This document shows positions 9,679 through 32,521 of a stretch of DNA of 43,244 nt, piece after piece (positions within the stretch are counted from its first letter, which is position 1; every line of letters begins with the position of its first letter). A program made the position numbers and the translations under genes. The DNA is from a virus. Location: IMG/VR virus record IMGVR_UViG_3300042197_003960, positions 1-43,244 of that record, one strand, 5' to 3'. The notes below the pieces were generated by a model that saw nothing but the letters and a program-made list of their open reading frames with translations, had not been told where the DNA came from and did not search any database.

Positions 9679-9700
9679 TAATCAAAAGGTTTTGCCATGT

Positions 9701-12725: not shown

Positions 12726-12789
12726 AGTTGATTGTCCTTTCGTTGCCTATGTTAAGCCTAGTATGTGCCTTCAAACGCATACTACACTG

Positions 12790-12819
12790 AGTATACGTGC
12801 TGATATTTATGTCTGTCAA
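12790..12819 (-). promoter_or_regulatory. Sigma70-type promoter of gp32
   Basis: Minus-strand -35 TTGACA (12814-12819) and -10 TATACT (12790-12795) are separated by 18 bases. The leader to the gp32 ATG at 12725 is about 60 bases and carries an AAAGGA SD. A late octamer CATAAATA lies inside the spacer. Confidence 0.8.
12804..12811 (-). promoter_or_regulatory. Late octamer CATAAATA embedded in the gp32 promoter spacer
   Basis: Minus-strand CATAAATA falls between the -35 and -10 of the sigma70-type promoter. It could provide late transcription of gp32, or be a chance or spacer-specific match. Confidence 0.4.
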
Positions 12820-12826
12820 CGAAAAG

Positions 12827-13654: not shown

Positions 13655-14988
13655 CGCTTGACGAGTTCTATCAACCTGGCCAGCGTGTGATCAGGCTCCG
13701 CGCTCTCGCTGCTCATGGTGCTGGACCTGGTCATCATCACCCCATCGGTGTCAAGGTCTTCCGACATGTCATCATCCTGATCTCCTGGCTCGATGTCCAT
13801 GCTCAGTTCTTCCATCCTCTGCTGTATCAGTGGTCTGGCGTCGGCCTCGGGATCCTGTGCTGCGAGATCTTCGAGACTGCGGAATAGCGCATCATCGGTG
13901 ATGATGTTATTGAGTTGTTCGATGGCATTGATGGCATCGGGGCCCACTGGTAGAGGTTGTGCCATGAGTTCTTCCAGCTGATTCGTCTCGCCCTTGGCGG
14001 TGGGGAGATCTATCCGATCCGTGACTTCTTGTGTCCAGGCATCAAACTCCTCTACTTCTTTCATGGCAGATCTGGACAGCGATGCCAGAACTGGCAGGGC
14101 TTCTTCGATGCGTGTGTCCAGAGTCTGTTCTATGAACATATCGCGTATCTCCGAGATCACATGATCCTGGGGTTGTTCTTGTGCCGGATCAAACTGTTCG
14201 CGCTCTTCTCGATAACCGCGCTGGCTGATCATACGCTTGGCTTTGGCTTTGAGATCACCGTAGTGTTTCACTGCTGCTTCTACCATGCCGGCTGCCGGGC
14301 CTTCGAATCTTCGATTACGACTCGCCCTGATAAATCTACCCAGAGTGTTGATCTCATTGACTATGTTGGTTATATGCTGTCCAAACGTATCATAGGGTCG
14401 ACCACCTTCGGCGACATGCCGAGCCAGCATGCGTCCATGAGCCAGGCTGCGGCTAGGCACGCGGAACCGCTCACCGTCAGCGGTCTCGACGAACAGGCTT
14501 TCGATGGCACGATATCGTGGTTCACCTTCGGCGAGATTGCGATCATGCCGTATCATCAATCGTGTTTGCTTGGGCTGATCGCTGTAGCTGATATTTTTCC
14601 GACCGTAATAACCCTCAAACAGACCTTCACGGATGGCAGCCATGCCCTGCATGGTGTATTTCAGCCGGTTGATGTTGTTGAGTTTAAAAGACAGCATGTT
14701 GCGCGTGGCAAAATTCTTCATCTGGGCCAGAAAATCATACCATGCACCACGATCTTCGCTGTCCATGCCGCGCCCTAGGTTGTCCCCGTAGTAGATCTCT
14801 AGGTCATTGCTGCTGCCCAGTAGTATCACCACGGTGCCATAGTTGCGACCATCGGTTTTCCAGTCAAAGCTAAACAGCTCGGCCTCGTTGGGGTCAGCGA
14901 CGCTCTTGCCCGAAGAGTCCAAGATCTCGGGTTCAAAATCCCGGGTCACCAGGATATCATATAGATTTTTGGGCGTGTTGTTTTTCAT
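13651..14988 (-). CDS. Conserved phage protein of unknown function, 445 aa
   Basis: The protein is long and mostly helical after a mixed N-terminal domain (residues 1-110, containing FSFDWKTDGRNYGTVVILLG). It has an acidic C terminus (DQDDDMSEDLDTDG) and no recognisable catalytic motif. It follows the terminase gene, separated only by the late octamer. Similar proteins occur near the terminase in uncultured aquatic T4-like phages. A structural or packaging-associated role is plausible but unproven. The start has no SD and lies five bases after a late octamer, predicting a leaderless mRNA. Confidence 0.75.
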   Translation of the reverse strand: MKNNTPKNLYDILVTRDFEPEILDSSGKSVADPNEAELFSFDWKTDGRNYGTVVILLGSSNDLEIYYGDNLGRGMDSEDRGAWYDFLAQMKNFATRNMLSFKLNNINRLKYTMQGMAAIREGLFEGYYGRKNISYSDQPKQTRLMIRHDRNLAEGEPRYRAIESLFVETADGERFRVPSRSLAHGRMLARHVAEGGRPYDTFGQHITNIVNEINTLGRFIRASRNRRFEGPAAGMVEAAVKHYGDLKAKAKRMISQRGYREEREQFDPAQEQPQDHVISEIRDMFIEQTLDTRIEEALPVLASLSRSAMKEVEEFDAWTQEVTDRIDLPTAKGETNQLEELMAQPLPVGPDAINAIEQLNNIITDDALFRSLEDLAAQDPEADARPLIQQRMEELSMDIEPGDQDDDMSEDLDTDGVMMTRSSTMSSESAEPDHTLARLIELVKR

Positions 14989-14993
14989 GACAG

Positions 14994-15001
14994 TATTTAG
15001 T
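14994..15001 (-). promoter_or_regulatory. Late promoter octamer ACTAAATA, 5 nt from start codon
   Basis: Minus-strand ACTAAATA occupies the gap between the terminase stop and the ATG at 14988, with five bases left before the start codon and no SD. Confidence 0.5.
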
Positions 15002-16566
15002 TACATCACCATGACAAACGGCAAGGGTTCTATCACTGTGTCCTGGTGATCACGCATCTGTGTGTCGAGCTCGCTGTGATAGCTCTGCAGCACCTGCAGC
15101 ATGCGCACCACTAACAGTGTGGACATCACGAGATCGTCATGCTCTCCGGTTTTGGCCGCGTAACTGGTGCCATGTGCCACGAAAGTTTTACACTCACTGA
15201 TCAAGCTGGCACTGTGTATCTCGAGCCTGCCGCTCTCTACTAGATGTTTGAATTTAGCGCAGGCCGCCAGTTTTGATTTGGGCGTGGTGTTGAAGCCTTT
15301 GCGCATCCTTTTATGTCCAGCCACACCAGGCTCACTGAGGAAATATCCTTGGATGTTTTCTTCGCCGTATTCAGCGATGCTGATAAGTGCAGCTTCTCCG
15401 ATGCTGTTGTTTTCCACTGAGTAGTATATGCTGCGTGGATCCTTTACGGTGTCATTGATGATCCGTATGATGTCGGCCAACGCTCGTATCTGCGTGGGTA
15501 TGTCACTGCGATTGTGCTTCCATTCCGCGACCTGGCAAGTGGTGTTGGCTTCAAATACTTCGATGGCGGCGGGATCGCCGCCAGTACCCAAGCTAGGATC
15601 CAGCCCTACTACATAGATCCTGCCGTGTTCGGGGCGCCGGAACCAGCGCACTTCGCCGGTCTTGAACAGAGGATCCTGTCCTTGCAGATCGAACAAGGCC
15701 ACGGGATTGATCAGGGTCTCATCATTAATAATGAATTCGCAATCGTGCTCGCGCCTGAAGCGCTCGGTGCCCAAGGCTGCGCGTTGCTGCTGTGCCCATG
15801 CTTCGTCGCGATCAGGATGTTCGTGCCAGTAGCTGCGATAGGCCCGGAAGCCATTCACGCCCACCTCGGTAGGATTGCCGAACTCGTCTTCGCACCGGTT
15901 GGCGCCTTTCCACAACAACGCGAACTGATCTTCGTCCGAATTGGGAGTAGACGTCACGATGGCTTTACCGCCCGTGGTCAGGGTGGGCGAAATCGAAGTC
16001 CAGAATTCCGCGGCTATGGTGGGGCGCACGAAAGCAAACTCATCCGCGTACAAGAGAGATATTGACATGCCCCGTCCGGTGTTTTCTGTGGTGGTGGCTG
16101 AGACTATGCGCGATCCGTTGTCAAAATCTATGTTTCCTTTGTTGTAGCTGGTGCATCCAGCACGTATGTGGTCAGGTACAGATTCGTAGGCATACCTAAC
16201 TCTCTGCATGATCTCTTGCGATCCTGTGTATTTGTGGGCAGCGATCAATATGGTGCTGTCAGGCACGAACATAGCATACCACAGCAAATAGCCTGCAGCC
16301 GAAGTAGTCTTACCGGTCTGTCTGGGCATCATGGAGATACTAAAGCGGTATCGGTGATAGGTATCTATGAGCCTGCGCTGATAGTCAAAGGGATGATACT
16401 GCATACGCCCTTTGACTGGATGCTGTATATAGAAAAAGTTGTCCATGAAATACATAGGCCCCGACACGGGATTAGCACAGGCCATGAACTCATCGATCTG
16501 CTGATCGTTGTAGACGGCCCTGGAATACGGGCTTTTGATCAGAGCTGGTTCGTCCGCGCGCGGCAT
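15001..16566 (-). CDS. gp17: gp17 terminase large subunit
   Basis: A 521-residue packaging motor/nuclease. The ATPase domain has an adenine-contact region (YHPFDYQRRL, 57-66), Walker A (MMPRQTGKTT, 79-88) and Walker B (LLYADEF, 171-177). The nuclease domain has the RNase H-like acidic residues D323 (VVGLDPSLG), E385 (YYSVENN) and D477/D478 (EHDDLVM). It cuts concatemeric DNA and pumps it into the prohead. It is somewhat shorter than T4 gp17 (610 residues), as in cyanophage relatives. The ATG shares one base with the stop of the upstream methyltransferase (TAATG). Confidence 0.95.
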   Translation of the reverse strand: MPRADEPALIKSPYSRAVYNDQQIDEFMACANPVSGPMYFMDNFFYIQHPVKGRMQYHPFDYQRRLIDTYHRYRFSISMMPRQTGKTTSAAGYLLWYAMFVPDSTILIAAHKYTGSQEIMQRVRYAYESVPDHIRAGCTSYNKGNIDFDNGSRIVSATTTENTGRGMSISLLYADEFAFVRPTIAAEFWTSISPTLTTGGKAIVTSTPNSDEDQFALLWKGANRCEDEFGNPTEVGVNGFRAYRSYWHEHPDRDEAWAQQQRAALGTERFRREHDCEFIINDETLINPVALFDLQGQDPLFKTGEVRWFRRPEHGRIYVVGLDPSLGTGGDPAAIEVFEANTTCQVAEWKHNRSDIPTQIRALADIIRIINDTVKDPRSIYYSVENNSIGEAALISIAEYGEENIQGYFLSEPGVAGHKRMRKGFNTTPKSKLAACAKFKHLVESGRLEIHSASLISECKTFVAHGTSYAAKTGEHDDLVMSTLLVVRMLQVLQSYHSELDTQMRDHQDTVIEPLPFVMVM

Positions 16567-17210
16567 TACTTTATGTCAGCTGATCGCTGCCTCCGGCACA
16601 TGAAAACATAGTAGATGTCTTGTATGGTGTCTTTGGAATCGGGCACGGCCAGGGGTATCTGGTACTCATACCACTCGCTGTCAAATCCCGCGCGGGTCAG
16701 TAGATCTGCCCACATCTGCTTGCCCATGACGCTGTAGTGGTTACGCATGCGTTCAAAAGATCTCGCGCAGTCAGGTGCGGGTACTTCGACATACATAAGA
16801 GCCCGGGATCGGAGCACGCGATTAAACTCCAAGAGAGAGAAAAACGGGAACGGACTATGCTCTAGATTCTGGCGGCAGAACAAGAAATCCAGGGATTCGT
16901 CTTTGTCTGGCAGGAAATTCATGTCACCATGCCGGACGTCAAGCCCTTTGGCCTGGCACGCACTGACATCTTCCCGGCTCAGGGTCAGGCCCCGGGCGTC
17001 GGTATATCCTCGCTGTTTCATCTCTTCCAAGAAGAATCCCTCACCGCAGGCGAGATCCAGCATCTTGGCAGACTTTGGCAGGCTCAAGGGATCAACGAAT
17101 CTCCGGACTACATCAGATGTCACTTGCTGATCAAGTTCGGCATTGGGATTGGGACATGTGCTGCTGATCACATGATCATAGTAAAATTTCATTTTAAGTT
17201 GTGCGTTCAA
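16566..17210 (-). CDS. SAM-dependent methyltransferase (Methyltransf_11-like)
   Basis: A 214-residue class I methyltransferase. Motif I is MLDLACGEGFFLEEM, the acidic position after strand 2 is less clear, DVRHGDMNFLPDKDESLDFLFCRQNLEHS gives motifs III-IV, and LLEFNRVLR is the usual following helix. I use the TTG at 17210 because AGGTGATC is well spaced as an SD. An ATG at 17192 with no SD is the alternative. It is coupled to the terminase gene by a TAATG overlap. It most resembles small-molecule or sugar methyltransferases, not DNA-base enzymes with a DPPY motif. Confidence 0.8.
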   Translation of the reverse strand: MNAQLKMKFYYDHVISSTCPNPNAELDQQVTSDVVRRFVDPLSLPKSAKMLDLACGEGFFLEEMKQRGYTDARGLTLSREDVSACQAKGLDVRHGDMNFLPDKDESLDFLFCRQNLEHSPFPFFSLLEFNRVLRSRALMYVEVPAPDCARSFERMRNHYSVMGKQMWADLLTRAGFDSEWYEYQIPLAVPDSKDTIQDIYYVFMCRRQRSADIK

Positions 17211-17225
17211 TCGATCACCTATGAG

Positions 17226-18377
17226 TTATTCTGAAAGAAAAGCCAGTTCGGGCCAGAGCTCTACAAAACGACCACGACTCGTGGGATGATATCGGAATTC
17301 GATATCATGAATGTGCTGTTTCATCTGCTGCGAATGGCCATCGGGGTCTGCTGCTGTTGAATCTAGATTCTTGACTGCGTGTTCAAAAAAGCTGATCTCC
17401 GCGGGATCCATGTAAGATCCACAAGTGTCCAACAGTCGCTGAGCTTCGGTCTTGGCCATGATCCTCAGTGTGGCATGATGTTGCAAAGGATCTAGGCAAG
17501 CGGGTTGGTACAGGGTCTGCCATACCACGGTGAGACCTCGTTGCTGCAGCCATTGCCGGAATTCCACTAACCTAGTACAGTTGTAGACGTTGTAGACCGC
17601 ATGCACCCCGCCCCAGTGTCCCTGGGTGTTCATGAGATCTTTAACTCGATCTATGTTGTCATTGAGCATGCTCCAGTATCCACCGTGCCGCACATACTCA
17701 AATCTATCATCGATATTGTCAAAGCTCATTGACCACCCTACCCGAGATCTATTTTTGAGTTTCTGGAAGATCTTGTTTTTATCAAAATCCACGTTCATGT
17801 TGGTTATCAGCGTGACTATGCAGTTTTTGGGTATGATGTCCAACAGAGTTTCGTTTTCGGGCAGCAACAAAGGTTCTCCACCTACCATGGCCACTTCGCG
17901 TATGTCTGTGGCATGATGCTGCAAGAACTCACAGACCTGCTCATAGTAAGGTCTCACGGCATTTTTTACCGGTATACCCTTTTTGATGCTCAACCATTTA
18001 GTGCTGCAGTATTCATGGCAGTAGTTGCAGGATAGATTACAGGTATTGTTCCATCTTATATCTATGATAGTGGGATCAAAACTGTTGACGTCGGCCGTGG
18101 CGACATCAAAATCCTGGTTGACATCGTTGTGCCAGTGTCTTTCGGATCGACCATATCGCTCGGCCTTGATGCAATTGGAACAATATTCTGGATGCAATCG
18201 TCCAGTTTTGACGGTCTCGCGTACTTCGCGCAGGCGTGACCCATAGATTATGTCTTGGATACTGTTCTTGTTGAGATCTCCCAGCAGGTTGGGATCTCCA
18301 GCACAGCAAGTCTTGACATCGCCGCGGAAGTTGATGTGCAGGCCTCGCCATGGGGCGGCGCAATATTGTTTTTCCAT
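17226..18377 (-). CDS. Radical SAM protein, twitch/SPASM-like
   Basis: A 383-residue radical SAM enzyme. CNLSCNYC (C113, C117, C120) binds the SAM-cleaving cluster and GGEP (166-169) contacts SAM. The N terminus YCAAPWRGLHINFRGDVKTCCAG, with CSNC at 66-69, is the half-SPASM ('twitch') arrangement placed before the core, with cysteines for an auxiliary cluster. It shares this plan with the gene at 6499-7743 but has diverged strongly. The substrate is unknown; peptides or sugars are typical. The ATG at 18377 has no SD and lies five bases after a late octamer. Confidence 0.8.
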   Translation of the reverse strand: MEKQYCAAPWRGLHINFRGDVKTCCAGDPNLLGDLNKNSIQDIIYGSRLREVRETVKTGRLHPEYCSNCIKAERYGRSERHWHNDVNQDFDVATADVNSFDPTIIDIRWNNTCNLSCNYCHEYCSTKWLSIKKGIPVKNAVRPYYEQVCEFLQHHATDIREVAMVGGEPLLLPENETLLDIIPKNCIVTLITNMNVDFDKNKIFQKLKNRSRVGWSMSFDNIDDRFEYVRHGGYWSMLNDNIDRVKDLMNTQGHWGGVHAVYNVYNCTRLVEFRQWLQQRGLTVVWQTLYQPACLDPLQHHATLRIMAKTEAQRLLDTCGSYMDPAEISFFEHAVKNLDSTAADPDGHSQQMKQHIHDIEFRYHPTSRGRFVELWPELAFLSE

Positions 18378-19099: not shown

Positions 19100-19462
19100 T
19101 CAGTATCCTCGGAATGGTTTTATGGGACTCTGTTGGTTACCACCAGGCAGTTCTTGGCTGCACATGTCGCCGCGATTGAGATCCTGCGCGCGCACTCCCG
19201 CGGCACGATAGGCCTGGCGCAGCTTCTTAGCGTCCACTTCAGTGTAAGGATGCGTGGTGTTGGCCAGGCCCACCCAGCTCTCTGCGTCCACGTCGGGCAC
19301 GGTGTCACCATCGGTGGCGGCGGCGGCCATGCCTATGCGGTTCATGCTGTAGGTTCCGGCACCGCGATAGCTGTCGTCGTAGCGATGCAGGCCGCGAGTG
19401 CTCCACTGCTGCCGCTTGGTTATCTTGCCTTTTTGTTCGGTGATGAACTCACATGCTCGCAT
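19100..19462 (-). CDS. Conserved phage protein with capsid-targeting-like N terminus
   Basis: A 120-residue protein starting MRACEFITEQKGKITKR. It contains RIGMAAAATDGDTVPDVDAESWVGLANTTHPYT and ends DMCSQELPGGNQQSPIKPFRG. I recall close relatives across cyanophage-type genomes, without known function. The N-terminal M-R-A-x-E-F-I-T-E resembles the T4 internal-protein capsid-targeting sequence (MKTYQEFIAE), with a prohead-protease-type I-x-E site. The true start is the ATG at 19462, five bases after the stop of the next gene. A long frame that continues to 19885 crosses two other genes and is spurious upstream of this ATG. Confidence 0.75.
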   Translation of the reverse strand: MRACEFITEQKGKITKRQQWSTRGLHRYDDSYRGAGTYSMNRIGMAAAATDGDTVPDVDAESWVGLANTTHPYTEVDAKKLRQAYRAAGVRAQDLNRGDMCSQELPGGNQQSPIKPFRGY

Positions 19463-19467
19463 CGTGG

Positions 19468-19740
19468 CTACCGTACGGCTACCTGGCCCGAACTCGTGGT
19501 ACCCACTTCTTGTATGGTGCAGTTGCCAGTAACAGTGAGCTGGTTGCCCACTCCCACCCAGACGTCTTGTGTCCAGTTGGCTGGGATAGATGTAGGTTCT
19601 GAAAACAAGTTGCCGGTAGCGGGCGTGCCGTACAGCATGTTGACTTGATAAGTCACGGCCGCGTCGCCGGTGCTGATACGGGCTCGGTCGGTAAACCAGG
19701 CCTGTGCCGATGCTGATGTGTAAACGTTTGCTTGTGCCAT
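19468..19740 (-). CDS. Small putative virion protein, 90 aa
   Basis: A 90-residue protein rich in Thr, Val, Ala and Gly (MAQANVYTSASAQAWFTDRARISTGDAAVTYQVNMLYG...). This composition is typical of all-beta phage structural proteins such as head or tail decoration subunits. No motif identifies it. It has a good SD (AAGGAAAAA) and sits among head-core candidates. Confidence 0.7.
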   Translation of the reverse strand: MAQANVYTSASAQAWFTDRARISTGDAAVTYQVNMLYGTPATGNLFSEPTSIPANWTQDVWVGVGNQLTVTGNCTIQEVGTTSSGQVAVR

Positions 19741-19757
19741 TTATGTTTTTCCTTGAT

Positions 19758-20900
19758 TCACCACTTGCGACAGCTCCAGTATCGCGCCTTGGTCCGGGGG
19801 CCAGGATTGGCGCAGTTGTGGCGCGCGCGGAAACTTTTCCTACGTGCCGGATTGCTTTTCTTGATGCGCATGGTCTTGTCACCAAAGTTCACTTTTTTGA
19901 CGTTACCAGTTTTGGGGTCTTTGACATAAACCTTGAATTTCGCTACATCACCTTGCATGGGTTTGCCCAGGGCAACCTTGCGACCTTGGTATTCGGCTTC
20001 GCTGATGTCCTGGCCCGCGTAGATCTCCTGGATGCGATCCATCAGCATCCCAAGTTTCGTCTCCATGTCCACCGATCTCATTCCACGTCGATCCAGTTTG
20101 TTCTCTACTTGGTCCATCATGTCCTGGAGATACTGCTGTGTTTCAATACCAAACTCTCCGCGCATGGCGCCTACTAGAGCATCCATGCGTTGAGTCTTGG
20201 CTATGTGCCGGAGATCCATGTCTACGTCGCTCATGACACCTTCCGACATGGACAGATGCTGATCGGGATCCTGGGTCTCATCTACCGTGGCCACTGGTTC
20301 TTGTGCGCCATCTGCGCCCACAGGGGCTAGAGCAGCGGCTTTGTCTGCCAGTGGATCTGTGATATTGGCTTCGGTTCCTTTTACCTGCACTCCAGCTAGT
20401 TCCATCACGCGCCTGAAATCCTGTTCGCTGTCTTGCACGTATTGCCAGGGATCGTCGTATTTTCTAGGATCTTTCATTCTGGAATCGCGACCCACGCTGT
20501 CGGGTTCATCGCTTATTGCGTCCCAAGGATTGTCTAATCGCGTTTGCGGAGCACGTTTGACTTTGTCGGCATCATCACCGCGACCATAGTCTCGGGTCTG
20601 CGGATGTCGGTTGGGATCGATGTCGCCTTCGGCCATGGTGTAGCCTTGACCGGGACTGGATCCCACGGCCCCGTATCTGCGGATCTCTTCATCCACGGGC
20701 TCTTCGTCAAGCAGGCCATATTGTTCCAGCATGGCGATCATCTGATCATCGGCTTCGATCACTATGGCATCTTCCAACACTTCGACCACATGGCTCTCTA
20801 GGAGACATTCCTCGCGGATGTTGATGGCAAAATCATCACCGGCTGCGGGGCTATCGATCCATTGCTGGGCTTCAGTGATGTATTCACGCAGGTTTTTCAT
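19758..20900 (-). CDS. Head-core/internal protein candidate, 380 aa
   Basis: Starts MKNLREYITEAQQW, a capsid-targeting-like N terminus with a protease-type site YITE/A. The middle is acidic and helical (residues ~30-270). Before the C-terminal domain comes QDISE/AEYQGRK, a second I-x-E/A site. The last ~80 residues form a basic domain (KFKVYVKDPKTGN, MRIKKSNPARRKSFRARH, NPGPRTKARYWSC) that is strongly conserved in aquatic T4-like phages and looks DNA-binding. The ATG overlaps the stop of the 866-aa gene (ATGA). I infer a prohead core protein processed by the gp21-type protease, leaving a DNA-associated basic fragment. Confidence 0.75.
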   Translation of the reverse strand: MKNLREYITEAQQWIDSPAAGDDFAINIREECLLESHVVEVLEDAIVIEADDQMIAMLEQYGLLDEEPVDEEIRRYGAVGSSPGQGYTMAEGDIDPNRHPQTRDYGRGDDADKVKRAPQTRLDNPWDAISDEPDSVGRDSRMKDPRKYDDPWQYVQDSEQDFRRVMELAGVQVKGTEANITDPLADKAAALAPVGADGAQEPVATVDETQDPDQHLSMSEGVMSDVDMDLRHIAKTQRMDALVGAMRGEFGIETQQYLQDMMDQVENKLDRRGMRSVDMETKLGMLMDRIQEIYAGQDISEAEYQGRKVALGKPMQGDVAKFKVYVKDPKTGNVKKVNFGDKTMRIKKSNPARRKSFRARHNCANPGPRTKARYWSCRKW

Positions 20901-23497
20901 GATGCTATCTTCCGATAGAGATCCAACATACGCTGTTGGTCTTCCAGTTCTACTTGCTCGGCTATGGCACCGAGGTTGACCTGTCCCGACGGGCCTTTGC
21001 CCAAATCTTTCATGGCCAAGGGATTGTCGGCCATGTTGTTGGGGTTGACCTGCAGTTTGGGACCATTGAGTCCACCTGACAAGCCATTGACCATGTAATC
21101 TGTGCTCATGGTCTCGGTGTTGTCCGCGGAGTTGGCCAAGTCTTCTTCCATCACGCTGCACTCACCTTCGTGCATCTGACCGCATGTGGCACAGGAACTC
21201 TGATATCCCGATGCCGAAAACAGACCAGCCATCTTCAACAGTTGTCCCAGAGCCATGGCATCTTCACCGGTGCCGTTGATGCTGACACTGGCTTCGCCCG
21301 AATCAGGCGAGTTGATGGTTATGGTGGTGCCTTCTGCCACCACGCGATCCAGTTCAGCATCAAAACTCTCTGCTAACTTGGCTTCGTATACGCCTTTGCC
21401 GAACTGTATGCCGCCTTTGGATTTTTTCTCGCCTTCAGCAGGAGCAGTGGCCACTGAACCAGCAGTTGTGGTTTCTTTGACTGGCTTCTCTTTTTCGTGA
21501 TCTTGTTTTTCTTTCGCAGTACGCTCACGATGCTGGGCGAAAATTTTTTCTTGCTGATCTTTGCTGGCGGGCACGGTCTTGCGAGCATCGGCTTCACCGG
21601 TGTCGACTTCCTTTACTTTCTCAGGCAGGCCTTTTTCCTTGGTCTTGGCGAATTTCTCCAGCTCACCTGCGGGCATCTTGGCCATTTCTTTTGAAGCACC
21701 ACGCAGTTCCGACCGGGGAATCTCGCCTTTCTTGGCAGCATGGGCGATACCGGCAGCAGCACGCTGTGCTCGGCTCACGGCTTTTTCTTCCAGATCCTCT
21801 TCATCCAGCTTGTCGTGCTGAGCACGGATACGATCCATCTTGGCCTTGCTGGCGCCTTCTCGTCCTGCTTGTTGCAGCGCTGCCATGCCCTCTTTACCGT
21901 ATTTCTTTTTGCCGATGTGGGCTTGTAGGGCCGATTCATCCATGTCTTGTTCTTCGGGGCGGTTGCTCTTGAGGTAATCGCGCGCGGAGTCGATGTATTC
22001 CTGGGCCAGGGTGATCTTCTTCTGCACCCACTCTGGCAGGTTCTCGTCGGCAGTGAGCATGCTCTCCAGTTCTTCAGCAGCGTCGGCGATGACACGAGCC
22101 TGGCTCTTGGCCATCTCGCCTTCTTCGTCGTACTCGTCCCGATCGTAGTCTTCGCGCATGCCTCCTCTGCGGAGATCGTCATGATGACGGTCATCCCATT
22201 TTTCTCGATCCTGCTCTCGTTGTTTTTGAGACCTAGGATCATACATGGAACCATCATCGGGATCACCGTACTCATCCCTGGGTCCTTTGTAATTGGGAAA
22301 TGAATCTCTTTTATCACTGCCAGTTGAACCTTCCGAGGTGCCTTGCTCTTCACGCATGCCCTTCATCAGGCCACGACCACGGGCATCGACCACGTCATCT
22401 TGACCGGAGAAATGCTCGCGTGCCGCTTTGACCACTGCCCGCATGACACTGCCCCGCGCCCGGTCACTGAGACCATGATAATCATCCACGAACGCCTCAT
22501 CCGCATATTGATCACCCAAGAACTCTTCGAAGTCATATTGATCACCAGACCAGGAGAAGCCCTGGCCCGCGTAATCACGCTGGATGGCTTGGGATATGGC
22601 ATTGGCCACGACCCGGGCTGGGCTAGCGGTAGTCTGTTCGCTTATGTCTTGCTCTTTCACTTTCTTTTTCTTGCGATCCGGCGTCCAGGCCGTGCGATCC
22701 GCTTTGCGCGATTTGGCCGTCACGCGTTCCTGGCGCGGGCGATCCGCGGTATATTTCTTGGGGCGACCACGGCCGCGCTTCTCGCCCGCGGGTCGTGCTT
22801 TTTTATCGCCTTCTTCTTCGTCATCGCTGTCATCATCATCGCGGCCATAGCGTTTCTTGCCGGCTTCGTATTCGGTGTCCAGCTGGTCCAGCTCCGCGCG
22901 GCTCTCGGGATCTTTCATAATGCTGGGAGCGTGCTTTTTACGGAATGTTTCACGATCCTGCCCAAACTTTTCTTTGTATTCTGGTGATCCAGGCCAGGCG
23001 ATCTTCATGCCGCGTGCCTCAGAAATGATGCCGCGCACCAGCGCAGTGGCTTCTCGGCTGCTGCCAGCAAACTGACGACTCAACACCTGATCACCTTCGG
23101 CGATGCACACATGGTACTCTTGATATTCGCGATCATGATAGACTTGTATCATGCGATCACCTAGGCTGGCTTCTTTGATCAGCCTCAGAGATTCTTTCAC
23201 TGGTTTCTTGGATTTTTTCTTGTCTGAGACTGCTTTCTTGAAGGGTTCTTTCCGGTCACCATCTCGATCAACATCCAGGAAATCGGGCTTGGCTTTCTTG
23301 GCTTCCTTCACGGGTTCCATGTCACCGTCACCATCAAGGTCGGCTTCTTTTTTACCAGCGGCCCGGGCCTTGGCCAGCTCACCGGTGAATCGATTGCCTT
23401 CTTCTACATCGTCTTCTTTGACCGCGCGCCCTTCATTCAAGAGCTGGCTAGCGGCCACAGTGTTGAATCGTTGCAGTATGTCATACATGTTGTTCAT
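20897..23497 (-). CDS. Large low-complexity head-core candidate with AT-hook
   Basis: An 866-residue, extremely charged protein. Near the N terminus are two Asp-rich loops (DLDGDGD 53-59, DVDRDGD 75-81) like calcium-binding turns, each followed by basic runs. RGRGRPKK at 241-248 is a textbook AT-hook for minor-groove binding. Several (I/L)xE sites followed by small residues occur (LIKE/A 107-110, CIAE/G 131-134, IISE/A 157-160, KLAE/S later). GGIQFGKGVYEAKLAESFDAEL introduces a more ordered C-terminal part with a cysteine cluster SCATCGQMHEGEC. I recall similar large proteins beside structural genes in aquatic T4-like phages. A scaffold or DNA-organising core protein is the best inference. 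Confidence 0.75.
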   Translation of the reverse strand: MNNMYDILQRFNTVAASQLLNEGRAVKEDDVEEGNRFTGELAKARAAGKKEADLDGDGDMEPVKEAKKAKPDFLDVDRDGDRKEPFKKAVSDKKKSKKPVKESLRLIKEASLGDRMIQVYHDREYQEYHVCIAEGDQVLSRQFAGSSREATALVRGIISEARGMKIAWPGSPEYKEKFGQDRETFRKKHAPSIMKDPESRAELDQLDTEYEAGKKRYGRDDDDSDDEEEGDKKARPAGEKRGRGRPKKYTADRPRQERVTAKSRKADRTAWTPDRKKKKVKEQDISEQTTASPARVVANAISQAIQRDYAGQGFSWSGDQYDFEEFLGDQYADEAFVDDYHGLSDRARGSVMRAVVKAAREHFSGQDDVVDARGRGLMKGMREEQGTSEGSTGSDKRDSFPNYKGPRDEYGDPDDGSMYDPRSQKQREQDREKWDDRHHDDLRRGGMREDYDRDEYDEEGEMAKSQARVIADAAEELESMLTADENLPEWVQKKITLAQEYIDSARDYLKSNRPEEQDMDESALQAHIGKKKYGKEGMAALQQAGREGASKAKMDRIRAQHDKLDEEDLEEKAVSRAQRAAAGIAHAAKKGEIPRSELRGASKEMAKMPAGELEKFAKTKEKGLPEKVKEVDTGEADARKTVPASKDQQEKIFAQHRERTAKEKQDHEKEKPVKETTTAGSVATAPAEGEKKSKGGIQFGKGVYEAKLAESFDAELDRVVAEGTTITINSPDSGEASVSINGTGEDAMALGQLLKMAGLFSASGYQSSCATCGQMHEGECSVMEEDLANSADNTETMSTDYMVNGLSGGLNGPKLQVNPNNMADNPLAMKDLGKGPSGQVNLGAIAEQVELEDQQRMLDLYRKIAS

Positions 23498-24111
23498 GGT
23501 CTTTTTCCTTGGGTTCTGAAGCCTGTGGCTGGCAGTGGAGAGCGTTTCATTTTACTCATAGGGCTAGTGATGCCCTGTGGTAAATCATTGGTGGTCTCGG
23601 CTGGTTTTGTTTTGCCTCCTGCCACGGTCCATGTGGCATCTTTGGCGGAATTCCGAACCACGGCTTGGTCCCCACCCACTGCTGCATAGTCTCGCTTGAG
23701 GTCGCGTTGTTCTTTGGTGTCAGCGGGATATTCAGGGTTGATCAAGAGATCTTTCTGCTGCTCGATGCCCAGGAGCTCACGGTCCATGCCCGTGGCATAA
23801 TCTCTCTGCTGTATGCAGATGCGATCCGCATCAAGCCCCAGGAGTTCGGCGATCTGCTGTATCTGGGGCGGGGTAGCGGGATAACGGAACGTGACATCTA
23901 TCATGTTTACGCTCTCGTTGGGATAAGCTGGGAAATCTTCATGCCGGCTCATCACTGGTGTGCTCTTGACTTCACCCACAGACACTGGATCAAATTTCTT
24001 GAGCTGATCCTTCATGGCCGAGACGAAACCAGCTGGCACATCACCCACGATCTTGATGCGATAATCATGGGTCTTGGTGCTTTCGGTGAGATATTGTTGG
24101 AATGTCTTCAT
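23494..24111 (-). CDS. Conserved phage protein with capsid-targeting-like N terminus, 205 aa
   Basis: Starts MKTFQQYLTESTKTHDYRIKI. The first ten residues closely match the T4 capsid-targeting sequence MKTYQEFIAE and give a cleavage-type site YLTE/S. The rest begins with a predicted alpha/beta fold (IKIVGDVPAGFVSAMKDQLKKFDPVSVGEVKSTPV) followed by a disordered tail. Its relatives in cyanophage-type genomes are uncharacterised. An AGGATC SD and a late octamer (24131-24138) lie upstream. Its stop overlaps the start of the 866-aa core candidate (ATGA), supporting a shared role in the prohead. Confidence 0.8.
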   Translation of the reverse strand: MKTFQQYLTESTKTHDYRIKIVGDVPAGFVSAMKDQLKKFDPVSVGEVKSTPVMSRHEDFPAYPNESVNMIDVTFRYPATPPQIQQIAELLGLDADRICIQQRDYATGMDRELLGIEQQKDLLINPEYPADTKEQRDLKRDYAAVGGDQAVVRNSAKDATWTVAGGKTKPAETTNDLPQGITSPMSKMKRSPLPATGFRTQGKRP

Positions 24112-24649: not shown

Positions 24650-24657
24650 TATTTATC
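24650..24657 (-). promoter_or_regulatory. Late promoter octamer GATAAATA, 4 nt from start codon
   Basis: Minus-strand octamer within the end of the gp4 gene, four bases before the ATG at 24645. It forms part of a near-palindrome (GCGATAAATATCGC). No SD is present. Confidence 0.5.
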
Positions 24658-25090
24658 GCTTGCGTTTTCCGTTATGGAACAATGAATCTTCGTTGAGCAC
24701 GCGGAACACTATGCCTGATCTCTGGCACCAGACCCGGGCCGCTTGCCATTTGGCATGATTTATGGCCACTATCATGCGATCTCGCTCGGTCATCCGGCCT
24801 TCAATGATGCTCTGTTTCCTGGGCTTGATCTCGATAAGTTCCGAGCATATCTTGTTGTTCCGGGTACGATATCGCATGAACACATCGGGCACATAGTTGG
24901 TTATCTTGCCAGTGAAGGGGTGTCGATATTTGATGGCTATGGCCTCGCTGGCCCATTCCAGTATGCTTTCGTTGTTGTCACAGAACTGGAAGAACGCGAA
25001 CTCCCAGCCCGATCTATATCGAGGTTGGCCTTTGCCTACGTATTTCTGGGGGTTCTTTGGGGTATAAGTGCCTTTTGCGAACGTAGTCAT
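24653..25090 (-). CDS. gp4: gp4-like head completion protein
   Basis: A 145-residue protein aligning well by eye with T4 gp4 (150 residues). It has FAKGTYTPKNPQKYVGKGQPRYRSGWEFAFFQFCDNN at the start, then ILEWASEAIAIKYRHPFTGKITNYVPDVFMRY, LIEIKPRKQ and INHAKWQAARVWCQRSGI. The PD...(E)xK core (PDVFMRY, ELIEIKP) is the restriction-endonuclease/TnsA-like fold. gp4 finishes DNA-filled heads before tail joining. The ATG overlaps the upstream stop (ATGA). Confidence 0.9.
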   Translation of the reverse strand: MTTFAKGTYTPKNPQKYVGKGQPRYRSGWEFAFFQFCDNNESILEWASEAIAIKYRHPFTGKITNYVPDVFMRYRTRNNKICSELIEIKPRKQSIIEGRMTERDRMIVAINHAKWQAARVWCQRSGIVFRVLNEDSLFHNGKRKR

Positions 25091-25450: not shown

Positions 25451-26575
25451 CTATGCTCCGCCAGTGCGGTTGTTTGTTTGGGTGTTATTGAGCGGCGGGG
25501 TCGGAAACCAATTGTTGGGGTTTCGTGGTCCTCCCTCGGGCCGTGTCACGGTCTTGGAAGCGATGTCCAGGACGTCTTGCTGCAAGATGGCTCGTAGATT
25601 CTGTCCTTTGAAAGTCTGGTAAGCAGCACCAGCTGATTGCACAGCACCCAAGACATCACCGTTGGCCAGGCTGCCGATTGCTCCAATACCAGTGTCTACC
25701 AACCCTCCTTTGCCCAACACGCTGCGAGTACCGCCGGGCCTGCTGAGAGCGCTGGGTTCGGTATCGTACAGAGCAGGATCAGCGAATCCAGTGGCGTTGG
25801 TGTCGGGCCGAGCAGCGCCTATGGCGCCCGAATAATATTTCACTGTCTCGTATTGCAGGGTCACGGTGTGCTCCATGACTCCATCGCCTTGGCTGTAATC
25901 ATAAGTGTCATGGCTCCAGTCTGATATCATGGGATTGATCAATGTATACACCGCATAGCTGTGTTGGTTAAAACCATATATCGTGATATCACGGAAAAAG
26001 ATAGGCTTACCACCGGCGCTGTTGGTGCCATCGCTGTAGCTCTCACCCACATACCCCCAGTCATTGACTGTGCGAGTACCAGCATAGATATCACGTGCGT
26101 TGTAATCAAATCCATTGCTGATGGTGGAGCTCACGCCCAGGGTACCATCAGTCTGATTCAAACCACGATATTTCTGGTTGGGATCTTTGTAGTAATAACT
26201 GTAGTAGTTGTACCACATCGTCCGTATGAGGTCATCACCATCGTCATGGAATTTGATGGTCACGGGCTGATACTCGATCTTTTTTTGGATCACGCGCTTG
26301 CGATTGTATTGGTTCAGGACTTCGGTATCAACACGGAATTTTGGTAAGTCTATGGTTTTTACCAAGACCCCAATAGTGTTGCTTTGTCCAGCAGCAAATA
26401 TGTTCCTCAGTGCTGGTATCCCATTGGTGTTGAGATTGAAGTACACGTGGAAGAGGAACTTGAAACGCGGAGAATTTCCGTACCCGTTGGTACGGAAAGT
26501 CTTGGAAGCATGACGATAATCTTTGAGATAATCGTTACCAAAAAACGCCTTGAGAAAATCCTGGCCAAAAGCCAT
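25451..26575 (-). CDS. Tail-tube-fold baseplate protein (gp54-like tube initiator)
   Basis: A 374-residue protein starting MAFGQDFLKAFFGNDYLKDY. The core has LVKTIDLPKFRVDTEVLNQYNRKRVIQKKIEYQPVTIKFHDDGDDLIRTMW and later the end strand MEHTVTLQYETVKYYSG. This repeats the pattern of T4 gp54 ('VKMPENRLSYET', 'DPLVISFRMD', 'FDVTFAYRV'), a tail-tube-fold protein that nucleates tube polymerisation on the baseplate. The flexible C terminus is Gly/Asn/Pro-rich. It lies directly after gp19, as expected for tube genes. gp48 or another tube-fold baseplate protein is the alternative. Confidence 0.55.
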   Translation of the reverse strand: MAFGQDFLKAFFGNDYLKDYRHASKTFRTNGYGNSPRFKFLFHVYFNLNTNGIPALRNIFAAGQSNTIGVLVKTIDLPKFRVDTEVLNQYNRKRVIQKKIEYQPVTIKFHDDGDDLIRTMWYNYYSYYYKDPNQKYRGLNQTDGTLGVSSTISNGFDYNARDIYAGTRTVNDWGYVGESYSDGTNSAGGKPIFFRDITIYGFNQHSYAVYTLINPMISDWSHDTYDYSQGDGVMEHTVTLQYETVKYYSGAIGAARPDTNATGFADPALYDTEPSALSRPGGTRSVLGKGGLVDTGIGAIGSLANGDVLGAVQSAGAAYQTFKGQNLRAILQQDVLDIASKTVTRPEGGPRNPNNWFPTPPLNNTQTNNRTGGA

Positions 26576-26588: not shown

Positions 26589-27233
26589 TTAGCCGATGGT
26601 AGCAGCGCCGGATGCTAGGCCAGTAACAATTGAACCAGCAGCACGACCCACGTCAGTACCAATACCTGAACCCAAGGGGCTCTGTACAGCATTGTCAAAT
26701 CTGATGTTCATGGTTATGGTCACTGCTTCGCTGTTGGCATAATTCAGCTCGTTGTAGTTGACGCTGCGTAAGAAACAACCATAGATTTCCCAGGTCTCGA
26801 GTACTTCGGGCTCAAACGCTCCGTTACCACCGTCAAGTATCTCGCACACAGTCTTGAACTTGTAGTCGATACCAGCCGCGGCCGAAGCTTGCTCCATGAA
26901 GTCTAGCTGTTTCTGCAGTTGCTCGCCCACGAGCCTTGCTACTTCACCGCTGGCGTCATCTCTGAGATTGACAGTGAGCTCTTGCCAAGTGTGCTTTCCA
27001 GCCAGATACAAACGGCTGTTGTAGATGGGTATCTCGATCTCTTCAAACTCAACCTGGGGTCGGGTGAAATCTACCACTTGTTTGGTGAGTTCAGTACGAG
27101 GAGTACTGGTGCCAAAGTTTTCAAACAAAACGCGGAACCGATACTGGAGCTTGGGCATCAACAGACCTTGGGTGGGCGAGCTCTGATCGCTGGCCAAAGG
27201 TACTGTCATTCTTGATAGTGATGAAACTGGCAT
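26589..27233 (-). CDS. gp19: gp19 tail tube protein
   Basis: A 214-residue tail-tube monomer. It has LLMPKLQYRFRVLFENFG, KQVVDFTRPQVEFEEIEIPIYNSRLYLAGKHTWQELTVNLRDD and a C-terminal ETWEIYGCFLRSVNYNELNYANSEAVTITMNIRFDNA. This matches T4-like gp19, which stacks as hexamers inside the sheath. It has a strong SD (AGGAGAT) and a late octamer (27254-27261), and directly follows the sheath gene as in other T4-like phages. A small Gly/Ala C-terminal extension is present. Confidence 0.93.
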   Translation of the reverse strand: MPVSSLSRMTVPLASDQSSPTQGLLMPKLQYRFRVLFENFGTSTPRTELTKQVVDFTRPQVEFEEIEIPIYNSRLYLAGKHTWQELTVNLRDDASGEVARLVGEQLQKQLDFMEQASAAAGIDYKFKTVCEILDGGNGAFEPEVLETWEIYGCFLRSVNYNELNYANSEAVTITMNIRFDNAVQSPLGSGIGTDVGRAAGSIVTGLASGAATIG

Positions 27234-27275: not shown

Positions 27276-30200
27276 CTACGAAGTGGCGCCAGCGGCTATC
27301 TCACCAGTGTTCTTGATGCGTACCGGGATATAGATAAACTCAACTGCCTTGACTGGCTCTATGGCGATATCAACATACAGTTCGTTCCGATCAATACGTG
27401 CCGGAGTGTTGTTGCTGAGATCACACACCACGAGATAATCATAGATACCACGCTTGGCGACGAGATCTATCATGAGACCATCAATGGCATTGGTAATCTC
27501 ATTCCTGGTGATCTGATCATTGGGTTCAAACACGAATGTTTTGCCGATTTGCGTGAGTCTCGCGCGGATATAAGCCACTAATCTCGCTACGTTGATGCGA
27601 TCCAGTGCGCTGGTCACAGCAATTTCAGTTTTGTTACCATAGTTGGTGATTCCGACTCCGGGTATAAACGTGATGGGGTTGATCTTGTTTTCATACAAGG
27701 TGTCACGTAGGCCTTGTCCCGTGGCTATGGTAGTGAATTCACCGGTCTGACCATTGATGTAGCCGATCGCGGAAGCATTGTCAATGACTCCGCGACGCAC
27801 ACCTGCCGGAGCCAACCACGGAAACGCTACTTCGTCGCTGCGTACTATGGTCCTCAGCATCATGTGGCTGGGCGGTTGCACCACTGGGCTACCAGTTTGA
27901 TCGGTGGTCTGGCAGCTGGGGTAGAACACACCAAGGTAAGCATCTGATGTAGTGAGTCCATCTCCAGTGACGAAACCAAGTCCACCAGCATCGGTGGCCC
28001 AGGCCTGTATCTCTGTGCCCGAAGGAGCCAATCTCAGGGGAGTATCACCCACAATGAACGCGGTGTTGTTTCTCTCGTTGTTGAGGCGTACCATGTTTAT
28101 GATCAGTTCTGGATACTGGGGGCAAGCGATGAGATTGAACTCAAGCTGCTCTTCTCTCAGAGTGTCTGATGTATCTATGGCAGACTTCAGCGCTTGTATG
28201 ATCACCTGTCGCTGCGCCAATCTTCCCATGTAAGGGCTGCCGTCGGCGCGGTTGCCCACGGCAGTGACCCAAGCATTGGTCTCTAAGAGACTCCAGAATG
28301 ATGGATTAGTTGGTGCGTTGCCAGTGGTGTTGGCCTTGGCCACATAGACCAGACCATTGAACAATACCTTGTCGCCTGACACATAACTGGTGCTGGCATC
28401 ATAGGAATCTATCGCGAAATCTTGACCGTTGAAATAGTTCACCTGGAATGATTTAACATTGAATCCCGATCTGCGGGTGTTAAACAGCAACATACCAGTG
28501 GGATATAGTGTATAGTCGGGCGCATCAATATCCAGATAGTTGCTGGTCAGCAAACTGGTTATCGTGGGTATATTGTCAGTTATGGGATCTGTGGTACCGT
28601 TGGCGGCCCAGCGAGCATCTGCGAACAGAACACCATTGGTCGTGGTCTGATCAGTGTTGTCTATGGTGACCCATTGATCTACTCCCAGCACAGGTTCCCA
28701 TCGTTTGATCACAGGATACAGCTCCAGATTACTGATGTCGATCCAGAGATCACCATAAACTAATGCAGTCTCATCACTCTGCTGTGTTGGGGCTGTCGGC
28801 GACACGATAGGTCCATTGGGGTCAGTCAGCGTGAGATTGAATCCACGTATGTCTGTGGCCACGGTGCGATATCCTTGCCATCCGCTGCCACTTTGTATCA
28901 TGATGTCAGTTTGGTTGGTAACGCTGTAATACCACGGTGTTCCATCAACGGGATCTTGATCTGGTGCGCTCAATGAGGCTTGATAGTCAAAAGATTGCCA
29001 AGGACTTAATACCAGCACATTGTCTGGATCTATGTTGCTGGCTTTACACCCAGGTACGCTGGAATTAAACCCAGCATCAGCTATGGGCTCGCCACCACCA
29101 GGAGTTTTTACCAATAAAATAACACCACCAAATTCTTGTATCAGAGATATGCTACCATCACTGTTGATAATCGCAGCGACTCCTTCAACATTGGCTGCGG
29201 ATATGTCTGCAGCAAAATCAGCAGCAGTAGTACCAGTTATGTTTACGGTTACTGCAGTAGTAAAATCACCTGTACCTTTTTGACTGGTTCTCAGCAGGAA
29301 AAAATTCCCAGGAGTAAAAACTGGAGTGGTAGTGTCTCCGGTGATTATAGTGGGACCACTTGCTGTTTTTCGTTGGAATGCAAAAGATAGTGTGTTGTTT
29401 ATATTTCCAGATATTGAAACTTCTCGCACTGTGGCATATTGCAAATAGATAGTACCTGCCGGAATGTTTCTTCCTCCCCCAACGGGATCTAATGCTGCAT
29501 TGGCTGTCGAATCGTTGAAATAAACTGGAACCGACTGTGTTATGAACGCACCTATTGTTGCATCATAAACCTTGAGTACTGCTTTAAGTCCTTGGTTGAC
29601 CGCAGTCAACATATTCCATATTGAACCAGTGGGTCTAGGCACCGATGATCCTGCTCGCCAGACTGGCACCTGCGAGCTGTAAGATTGTTGTATCGCTGGA
29701 ATAAAATACGTACCAGCAGTGATACCCAGTGTGGTCAATAATCCTGCGGTGCTACCGGATCCAATCACCACATTTCCTTGATCGGTAGATGATCCATCAC
29801 CGTCAGCTGTGCTATCTGCATAGATCACTAATTTGTTGCTGACTATACCAGCCGTGACACCAGTGATGCTGGCTGCGTTGATGGCTGTCACTAACCCTGT
29901 CAGGTTATTATTAGGAGCTGCCGGGACGGCAATGTTGAATCCATTGATAGATATCACGTTCCCGGTCACGAGATTTGAACTGACCGAATTTGAACCACTC
30001 AGCGTGGGCCAGGAAGCTTGCCATGCATCAGATCCCGCTAGAACCCATGAGTTTGTGTAATTCTTGAAGTATATGGGGTTGTTGATATTGGTCGTGACCA
30101 CAGCATAGTCGCCGATATTGCCTATGCTGGCACTGGGCTCTCCACCAGTTAGTTGTGAAGCACTGGTCAGTGCCAGAGGAGTCTTGACCGTAAAAGCAGC

Positions 30201-30659
30201 AGTGGTGGCGTTCCATTCAAAAATACCCCAGTCAGTGTCACTAACATCAAACCAATAAGTCCCGTCTGGAGGACTACCAGTGGGGCGCACGAGGCTGGCA
30301 GTTAGAGAAGCGAGATCAACATCAGCGCGCATGACGTAGGCACGATTGGTTATACCCAAGACCGAATTCGCAGCCAGTAGACCATATTCATTGAGTTCAT
30401 AACCATTGATAGGCGTACCAGTGCTGGTCTTGTAGAAAAATGGATTACCAAAAGTAGCAGCAAGATCACGTTGACTGGTGACTAGATAGACTTTGTTGGC
30501 ATTGGCCGCCAGCGTGCCAGGGGCTACTCCAACACCAGCACCCGAAATCTTGTTCTGTGCGGTGGCCAACAATATAAAAGGCACCGAATTGGTAGCGGCG
30601 GGGACGAAAGTACTTTCGTCAATGATTGTGACTTCTACTCCGGGCGATACTAGTGCCAT
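27276..30659 (-). CDS. gp18: gp18 tail sheath protein (enlarged)
   Basis: A 1127-residue sheath subunit. The start MALVSPGVEVTIIDESTF and the C-terminal domain (GVRRGVIDNASAIGYINGQTGEF ... TLYENKINPITFIPGVGITNYGNKT ... INVARLVAYIRARLTQIGKTFVFEPND) are typical of contractile-tail sheaths. The final KAVEFIYIPVRIKNTGEIAAG supplies the C-terminal strand that interlocks subunits. T4 gp18 has 659 residues. The extra ~450 lie in the middle, are Thr/Ser/Gly-rich, and probably form surface domains. It has an SD (AAGGAAG) and an exact late octamer (30690-30697). Confidence 0.93.
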   Translation of the reverse strand: MALVSPGVEVTIIDESTFVPAATNSVPFILLATAQNKISGAGVGVAPGTLAANANKVYLVTSQRDLAATFGNPFFYKTSTGTPINGYELNEYGLLAANSVLGITNRAYVMRADVDLASLTASLVRPTGSPPDGTYWFDVSDTDWGIFEWNATTAAFTVKTPLALTSASQLTGGEPSASIGNIGDYAVVTTNINNPIYFKNYTNSWVLAGSDAWQASWPTLSGSNSVSSNLVTGNVISINGFNIAVPAAPNNNLTGLVTAINAASITGVTAGIVSNKLVIYADSTADGDGSSTDQGNVVIGSGSTAGLLTTLGITAGTYFIPAIQQSYSSQVPVWRAGSSVPRPTGSIWNMLTAVNQGLKAVLKVYDATIGAFITQSVPVYFNDSTANAALDPVGGGRNIPAGTIYLQYATVREVSISGNINNTLSFAFQRKTASGPTIITGDTTTPVFTPGNFFLLRTSQKGTGDFTTAVTVNITGTTAADFAADISAANVEGVAAIINSDGSISLIQEFGGVILLVKTPGGGEPIADAGFNSSVPGCKASNIDPDNVLVLSPWQSFDYQASLSAPDQDPVDGTPWYYSVTNQTDIMIQSGSGWQGYRTVATDIRGFNLTLTDPNGPIVSPTAPTQQSDETALVYGDLWIDISNLELYPVIKRWEPVLGVDQWVTIDNTDQTTTNGVLFADARWAANGTTDPITDNIPTITSLLTSNYLDIDAPDYTLYPTGMLLFNTRRSGFNVKSFQVNYFNGQDFAIDSYDASTSYVSGDKVLFNGLVYVAKANTTGNAPTNPSFWSLLETNAWVTAVGNRADGSPYMGRLAQRQVIIQALKSAIDTSDTLREEQLEFNLIACPQYPELIINMVRLNNERNNTAFIVGDTPLRLAPSGTEIQAWATDAGGLGFVTGDGLTTSDAYLGVFYPSCQTTDQTGSPVVQPPSHMMLRTIVRSDEVAFPWLAPAGVRRGVIDNASAIGYINGQTGEFTTIATGQGLRDTLYENKINPITFIPGVGITNYGNKTEIAVTSALDRINVARLVAYIRARLTQIGKTFVFEPNDQITRNEITNAIDGLMIDLVAKRGIYDYLVVCDLSNNTPARIDRNELYVDIAIEPVKAVEFIYIPVRIKNTGEIAAGATS

Positions 30660-32248: not shown

Positions 32249-32521
32249 TTATCGATTCAACAATCGGATGAGTTTGCTCTTTGGATTTACTCGTTTGGTA
32301 CGCCGAGTCTTGCGCGCCTGGCGTATCTTGGTACGAGCGCGTGTTTTTTTCATCCTCTGGGCTTGGGCGAAATCTGGTGCGGAAGAACAGTCACTTACGC
32401 GCGGTACTGTACGGTTGGCACGTGGACCAGATTCACAGCGCCAGTTCAAGGTCACTTTGCCAGTGCGCGGATTGCGCCGCCACACCATGCGGTGTTCGGT
32501 GATGAATTCGTGTGCTCGCAT
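32249..32521 (-). CDS. Basic internal-protein candidate with capsid-targeting-like N terminus
   Basis: A 90-residue, very basic protein starting MRAHEFITEHRMVW, which matches the T4 capsid-targeting pattern with a FITE protease-type site. It then has KVTLNWRCESGPRANRTVPRVSDC and a Lys/Arg-rich C terminus (RMKKTRARTKIRQARKTRRTKRVNP). T4 internal proteins IPI-IPIII are likewise small, basic, tagged at the N terminus and packaged with DNA. Relatives occur in cyanophage-type phages, unassigned. The ATG at 32521 has no SD and is four bases from a late octamer. An upstream in-frame start (32566) would lie inside the next gene. Confidence 0.75.
   Translation of the reverse strand: MRAHEFITEHRMVWRRNPRTGKVTLNWRCESGPRANRTVPRVSDCSSAPDFAQAQRMKKTRARTKIRQARKTRRTKRVNPKSKLIRLLNR

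Follow-up and report, generated by a model that had tools for sequence, protein, structure and literature searches.

The internal proteins of bacteriophage T4 are several unrelated proteins that share one leader of about 10 residues, and part of this cargo is basic. In the capsid-targeting sequence (CTS) of one of them, IPIII, residues 4 and 7 serve targeting and residues 8 and 10 serve processing; the prohead protease gp21 recognizes [L/I]-x-E, and IPIII variants with Asp at position 10 are reported to be targeted without being cut (PMC9026906). In SPN3US and phiKZ, multiple ejection or inner-head proteins are cut after a short xxE motif, and their propeptides, several of which exceed 100 residues, have been proposed to target the prohead (PMC5694885). 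Here we analyze IMG/VR virus record IMGVR_UViG_3300042197_003960 (43,244 bases, the whole of which is referred to as the window), in which a set of otherwise unrelated proteins begins with short, T4-like leaders ending in [LI]xE. We estimate a probability of about 80% that these proteins are targeted to the capsid and matured by a prohead protease.

The window covers part of the genome of a myovirus of the T4 superfamily, as PHROG matches to terminase, sheath, tube, neck, UvsX and gp32 of the T4 type show. Its tagged proteins resemble T4 IPI, IPII and IPIII in the register of the leader, in the [LI]xE at its end and probably in the association with a protease of the S77 system, which near relatives encode. 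Unlike the T4 proteins, they include a second, 9-residue leader type (MRAxEFIxE) and long acidic pro-regions with an internal site that would free a C-terminal domain, no homology to the T4 proteins is detectable in their mature parts, and some of the predicted mature proteins are not basic. They differ from the SPN3US and phiKZ proteins in that the leaders are short (9 to 30 residues) and T4-like in sequence, and in the additional site at a domain boundary.

Short leaders on mutually unrelated proteins

Four tagged N termini that an initial annotation of the window had pointed out are present at the positions given there, all on the minus strand. The leaders, and three of the proteins that carry them, are as follows.

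19436..19462, minus strand: 120-amino-acid (120-aa) protein: leader MRACEFITE, cut predicted after E9 (ITE followed by Q)
20871..20900, minus strand: 380-aa protein: leader MKNLREYITE, cut predicted between ITE and A
24082..24111, minus strand: 205-aa protein: leader MKTFQQYLTE, cut predicted between LTE and S
32495..32521, minus strand: 90-aa protein: leader MRAHEFITE, cut predicted between ITE and H
19100..19462, minus strand: 120-aa tagged protein, without a Pfam, PHROG or NCBIfam match
23494..24111, minus strand: 205-aa tagged protein, homologue of PA5oct gp282
32249..32521, minus strand: 90-aa tagged protein, basic (predicted mature charge +23)

No other open reading frame (ORF) of at least 50 residues in the six frames of the window starts with M[KR]x{2,5}[FY][ILV]xE. 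From the rate at which the pattern occurs internally (2 in 13,139 positions of the 48 window proteins, 13,667 residues), 0.007 occurrences would be expected at the 48 N termini versus the 4 observed (P about 1e-10). The pattern was defined with the data already in view, but the excess is very large.

As a positive control, the T4 genes ipII and ipIII were found to start with MKTYQEFIAEA and ipI with MKTFKEFTSTTT / MKTFKEFTSTTTPVSTITEA. The likeness to MKTYQEFIAE-type starts proposed initially is thus borne out for ipII and ipIII (MKTYQEFIAE, then A). It had also been claimed for T4 Alt, which is not known to start in this way. MKTFQQYLTE aligns residue by residue with MKTYQEFIAE in the same 10-residue register. 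The leaders of the 205-aa and 380-aa proteins agree with the T4 CTS at each position considered (about 10 residues, aromatic or hydrophobic residues at 4 and 7, [LI] at 8 and E at 10), and the MRAxEFIxE leaders do so minus one residue. No tagged protein is named by Pfam, PHROG or NCBIfam, the matches being confined to DUF3008 and weak virion-protein PHROGs; among the weak ones, residues 1 to 39 of the 205-aa protein match PHROG 2667 "internal head protein" (E=0.025). The mature parts have no detectable homology to T4 IPI, IPII or IPIII; the likeness to internal proteins is one of presumed mode of action and not, on this evidence, of membership in the IP families.

The tag recurs on the corresponding families in related IMG/VR contigs, and these families are mutually nonhomologous. 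When distinct homologue N termini were counted, the strict tag was present in 21 of 25 members of the 205-aa family and 13 of 18 of the 120-aa family. In the 90-aa family the proportion was 9/24, and leader length ranges between 9 and about 20 residues, with [LIV]xE usually directly preceding the conserved mature start, HRMVW or similar (FITE-HRMVW, ILDE-HRMVW, ELEE-HRMIW, QLAE-HKMIW, ELDE-HELVW, GINE-HRMVW and TITE-GRMVW). Most relatives of the 120-aa protein keep MRAREF[IVL]xE, and those without E9 carry LxE four residues later (LGE-A in locus L017, LSE-T in locus L238). Where the register is shifted, an [LI]xE site usually shifts too and again lies immediately ahead of the conserved mature part. 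The 90-aa homologue of Salicola phage SCTP-2 has no leader. Per-family Fisher tests of the N-terminal [LI]xE were not relied on as evidence, because an untagged 171-aa family was also "significant" through common descent.

A tblastn search with the 120-aa protein matched no isolate phage. The AlphaFold2 (AF2) model of this family is of low confidence (predicted local distance difference test [pLDDT] 67.5, predicted template modeling score [pTM] 0.40). In relatives the protein frequently has a tandem paralogue with the same tag (L002 10001-10755, L004 10001-10773, L011 13567-14321, L012 13844-14598 and L014 14517-15220); in these pairs both copies carry MRAREF-like tags, and many copies share the C-terminal motif S.E....N..S(P)...F.GYPR.

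A predicted protease site at a domain boundary of the 380-aa protein

19758..20900, minus strand: 380-aa precursor with tag, acidic pro-region, site ISE-A (residues 299-301) and basic C-terminal domain
19761..19997, minus strand: 79-aa basic domain (residues 302-380), predicted mature product, probable Tlr6F/DUF5754 relative

The initial annotation had noted DISE before A, ahead of a basic C-terminal domain, in the 380-aa protein. This was confirmed: the boundary falls at E301/A302, between a pro-region of charge -36 and a domain of charge +19. With residues 302 to 380 as the query, 240 loci were collected and a hidden Markov model was built from them. The 168 fused cases fell into 51 clusters, between which the 17 upstream residues are less than 35% identical; one of the 51 is the bare copy of Aegir, with Met before Ala. 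L, I, V or M occupies P3 in 49 of the 51 clusters (background, 21%), Glu occupies P1 in 50 (background, 13%) and Ala occupies P1' in 48, whereas P2 and P4 are freely variable; P3 lay outside the search query, whereas P1 lay inside it and is less independent. Common descent by itself would have kept P2 too. Judged from sequence, the boundary pattern before the 79-aa domain is that of a gp21-type cleavage site.

Two further forms show how small the precursor can be. In locus L138, MLRFKQFSE is joined directly to AEYQGRK of the domain, and the 105-residue protein of C48C1 consists of the tag MKKFKQYIDE, a short spacer, LTE and then AEYQGKK. In HTVC008M the domain start AEFQGKK follows LEE. The median charge of the domain is +19 in 133 fused forms and +21 in bare forms, and 84% of the pro-regions are negative. 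In a clade comprising L158, L160 and L162, Asp replaces Glu at P1 (ELFD, then AEYQGRK); if cleavage follows the T4 rule here, targeting of these precursors should be retained, whereas their cutting should be inefficient. In Roseobacter phage CRP-6, gp55 (L174 2435-3124) has the domain fused ahead of an XkdF-type protease (PF14550, E=7e-18), which ties the domain to head maturation in a phage free of S77.

The 866-aa protein and further candidate cargo

20897..23497, minus strand: 866-aa acidic protein with a DUF3008 domain and conserved sites LEE-K (571) and LAE-S (710)
23432..23497, minus strand: longer leader of the 866-aa protein, MNNMYDILQRFNTVAASQLLNE, then G (LNE-G at 22)
21614..21781, minus strand: DUF3008 domain, residues 573-628 (E=4.7e-16), boundary site kept in relatives

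The LNE-G leader of the 866-aa protein is a fifth leader, absent from the initial annotation. In its family the leader reads M(N/D/S)(N/F)(M/F)Y(D/E/N)(I/L)..., is about 15 to 27 residues long and in most relatives ends in [LI]xE before G or R (LLE-G, INE-G, LTE-G, LNE-R; LNE-G in the window). Four internal sites had been listed initially for this protein. LAE-S at 710 stands, being kept as [LI]xE-S/G/A/Q in 13 of 19 relatives, with several of the others lacking that segment. IKE109, IAE134 and ISE160 are not conserved in relatives, few of which cover this region, and look accidental. LNE-G at 22 and LEE-K at 571, neither of them listed, are better sites. The total number of [LI]xE was dropped as evidence, since that of the 866-aa protein is near the shuffled expectation, and positional conservation was used instead.

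DUF3008 is preceded by LEE-K in the window and by VAE-K, MAE-K, VSE-K or IAE-K in relatives, and stand-alone DUF3008 proteins start with MPAQSKAQ. In four T4-like phages the DUF5824 protein has an [LI]xE some ten residues ahead of the core, and in that of L138 the site lies directly after the tag, MKFLDYIAE. DUF5824 loci with a tag and/or [LI]xE (L164 11695-11967, L138, L163 18079-19869 and L166 10336-12288) are candidates for packaged cargo. The DUF6267 protein of Melnitz (L166 8703-9950) has a CTS-like start, MINFSKYITED; its HTVC008M homologue starts with MYNDLLVED.

Prohead protease in relatives and bare domains in small phages

Two near relatives of the window phage, G001 (222,775 bases) and G002 (91,666 bases), encode Peptidase_S77, the gp21 family (E about 1e-26). 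The gene sits in a T4-like head cluster, with proteins that we read from their sequences as acidic core-like, scaffold-like and gp23-like capsid proteins. Both sequence blocks typical of the family, one with His (GEVDHPD) and one with Ser (GVSSRG), are present in the G001 protease. In the capsid proteins of both relatives, LKE-N and ISE-A occur ahead of the region resembling mature gp23 and may be capsid maturation sites.

Of 50 contigs in which the 79-aa domain is fused, 11 contained S77; of 44 records in which it is bare, eight of them from isolates, none did. All four isolates with the fused form (Pelagibacter phage HTVC008M, C48C1, Methylophilales phage Melnitz-3 and Flavobacterium phage immuto) encode S77, and none was found in ten small phages. 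In the latter the domain stands alone (79 to 94 aa) and starts where the cut is predicted in the fused form: M-AKYQGR in Aegir (79 aa), M-ATYKGK in CRP-901 (85 aa) and M-AKYKGR in HTVC202P and HTVC111P (90 and 93 aa). CRP-235, CRP-738 and HTVC106P have 79-aa forms. Several of the bare-domain genes have a terminase, portal, head-morphogenesis or DUF2213 gene nearby.

Probable relationship of the 79-aa domain to Tlr6F

AF2 models the 79-aa domain with good confidence (pLDDT 87, pTM 0.70) as two main strands followed by two helices. In Pfam scans, PF19058 (DUF5754) matched 22 of 52 members at E<=0.1 (best E=1.9e-4) and the window 380-aa protein at E=0.61; in genome searches all PF19058 matches were below the Pfam gathering score, and in several genomes the best of these subthreshold matches was the 79-aa-type domain. 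A Foldseek search of viral models returned phage relatives first, including fusions to XkdF- and ChaB-named proteins, and then proteins from Tunisvirus (V9SE36; probability 0.91, TM score 0.55, E=0.099) and Chrysochromulina ericina virus (A0A0N9R3E1; probability 0.75). Against the PDB, Foldseek gave no significant match and the sequence search gave chance-level matches only.

PF19058 corresponds to Tlr6F (PMC12220804), which in 2015 was reported to be conserved in nearly all polinton-like viruses and many giant viruses, in several virophages and in some phages, and to resemble no protein of known function (PMC4642659). On the basis of the subthreshold PF19058 matches and the Foldseek matches to giant viruses, we therefore consider the 79-aa domain a probable, not a proven, Tlr6F/DUF5754 relative. 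Like Tlr6F, the phage domain occurs as a small stand-alone protein in small phages; unlike Tlr6F, it is fused behind a protease site in T4-like phages. This raises the possibility, which we regard as evenly balanced, that Tlr6F/DUF5754 is a virion-internal, DNA-associated protein that would be protease-released cargo in T4-like phages and directly mature in small phages, and that would belong with DUF3008, DUF5824 and the 90-aa family to a pool of exchangeable packaged domains.

Gene context

15001..16566, minus strand: T4-type large terminase (PHROG match)
24653..25090, minus strand: head-closure protein, gp4-like, TnsA-like fold (family-library matches)
26589..27233, minus strand: T4-type tail tube protein (PHROG match)
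27276..30659, minus strand: T4-type tail sheath protein (PHROG match)
33386-34186: neck protein (family-library matches)

In Pseudomonas phage PA5oct the genes follow each other as in the window: sheath, tube, second tube, structural protein, head closure, X, the homologue of the 205-aa protein and, further on, terminase. That homologue, gp282, is annotated as a structural protein from electrospray ionization tandem mass spectrometry (ESI-MS/MS), a statement taken from the annotation only. Two tail-tube proteins lie side by side in the window (25451-26575 and 26589-27233, minus strand), as in PA5oct. An untagged 445-aa protein (13651-14988, minus strand) matches a PHROG "virion structural protein", and PA5oct gp278, a virion structural protein with an ESI-MS/MS note, occupies a similar position. 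Between the 380-aa and 120-aa genes lies an untagged 90-aa protein (19468-19740, minus strand) without a family match. Part of the region 1050-18377 (minus strand) encodes, as judged by eye, glycosyltransferase-like, radical-SAM-like and methyltransferase-like enzymes and homing-endonuclease-like ORFs, interspersed with replication and packaging genes.

Discussion

Our comparison supports the proposal, made initially from the window alone, of a set of capsid-targeted proteins matured by the prohead protease: the same tags occur on unrelated proteins, relatives encode S77, P3 and P1 are kept at the domain boundary, and phages without the protease have bare domains. Packaging is also favored by the annotation of PA5oct gp282, the homologue of the 205-aa protein, as detected by mass spectrometry. 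In the mechanism that we propose, the short leaders (MKTFQQYLTE, MKNLREYITE, MRACEFITE and MRAHEFITE) and the longer MNNMYDIL...LNE type would bring unrelated proteins into the prohead core, where a gp21-type S77 protease would cut after [LI]xE and remove the leader. The 380-aa protein would be cut additionally at ISE-A, freeing the Tlr6F-like domain of 79 aa and charge +19 from its acidic pro-region, and the 866-aa protein would probably be trimmed at LNE-G, LEE-K and LAE-S. As T4 internal proteins do, the freed basic domains would most likely stay inside the capsid, associated with the packaged DNA; such association is suggested by this analogy and by the charge of the products, which is +23 for the 90-aa protein and +19 for the 79-aa domain.

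Several observations weigh against this interpretation. The leader of PA5oct gp282, MKSFRDYYDAS, has no [LI]xE, unlike that of the window 205-aa protein, so that leader removal is not universal; PA5oct gp282 may be targeted without being cut, as is reported for the position-10 Asp variants of IPIII. The predicted mature 120-aa (+4) and 205-aa (+1) proteins are not basic, unlike classic internal proteins. The 43-kb window contains no visible portal, major capsid, scaffold or protease gene, and on fragments the association with S77 is weak, since the 44 bare contigs span only about 1 Mb. N-terminal conservation within a family is in part due to common descent, as the untagged 171-aa family shows, and the 866-aa protein contains 11 [LI]xE versus 7.3 after shuffling (P=0.10). 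LEE also occurs a few residues upstream of the domain in CRP-6, a phage with an XkdF protease but without S77. For the window phage and its close relatives, neither virion proteomics nor N-terminal peptide data were found.

The least improbable alternative is that the tagged proteins belong to the core or scaffold, as gp22, gp67 and gp68 do in T4; they would be targeted to the core and then digested by the protease, so that little or nothing is left in the virion. The length and acidity of the 380-aa and 866-aa proteins and their several [LI]xE sites do fit this reading, and richness in such sites is typical of cores, the scaffold-like protein beside S77 in G001 having 23. However, the sites lie at domain boundaries and spare well-folded basic domains, small phages retain the basic domain alone, and PA5oct gp282 is annotated as a virion protein; we therefore regard wholesale digestion as improbable. 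Less probable still is that [LIVM]xE-A before the basic domain is a structural cap and that the precursor acts uncut. Strong conservation beside a folded domain may have structural reasons, but the bare orthologues start at A without the P3-P1 residues, the AF2 model of the domain is confident in their absence, the pattern, in which P2 and P4 are unconstrained, equals the gp21 consensus (PMC9026906), and the same pattern stands ahead of DUF3008, DUF5824 and the 90-aa domain. Finally, that the leaders are chance matches or inherited, family-specific N termini without a role in targeting is hardly credible: inheritance within a family does make homologues nonindependent, but the tag is common to four or five nonhomologous families of one genome, is fused straight onto the domain in L138, and is absent from the same cargo in SCTP-2 and the small phages.

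Capsid targeting followed by prohead-protease maturation would be a mechanism of a known kind, with precedents in the CTS of T4 internal proteins and in the SPN3US propeptides (PMC5694885). The novelty lies in the cargo families, in a second type of short leader, in the internal site that would release a domain, in the coexistence of bare and fused forms as a natural experiment, and in the probable link to Tlr6F; a literature search of incomplete coverage found no paper describing any of these. Injection of at least one of the proteins into the host is speculative, and we rate it somewhat below an even chance. T4 IPI brings an anti-restriction activity into the host (PMC3012670), and such cargo is therefore a natural place to seek injected counter-defense proteins.

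Through sequence-based recognition of tags and cut sites, many "hypothetical proteins" of environmental T4-like phages become predicted head cargo, and this cargo comes with exact mature N termini that can be checked by proteomics. The internal site before the Tlr6F-like domain provides the first concrete, testable hypothesis of function for a family that spans phages and giant viruses.

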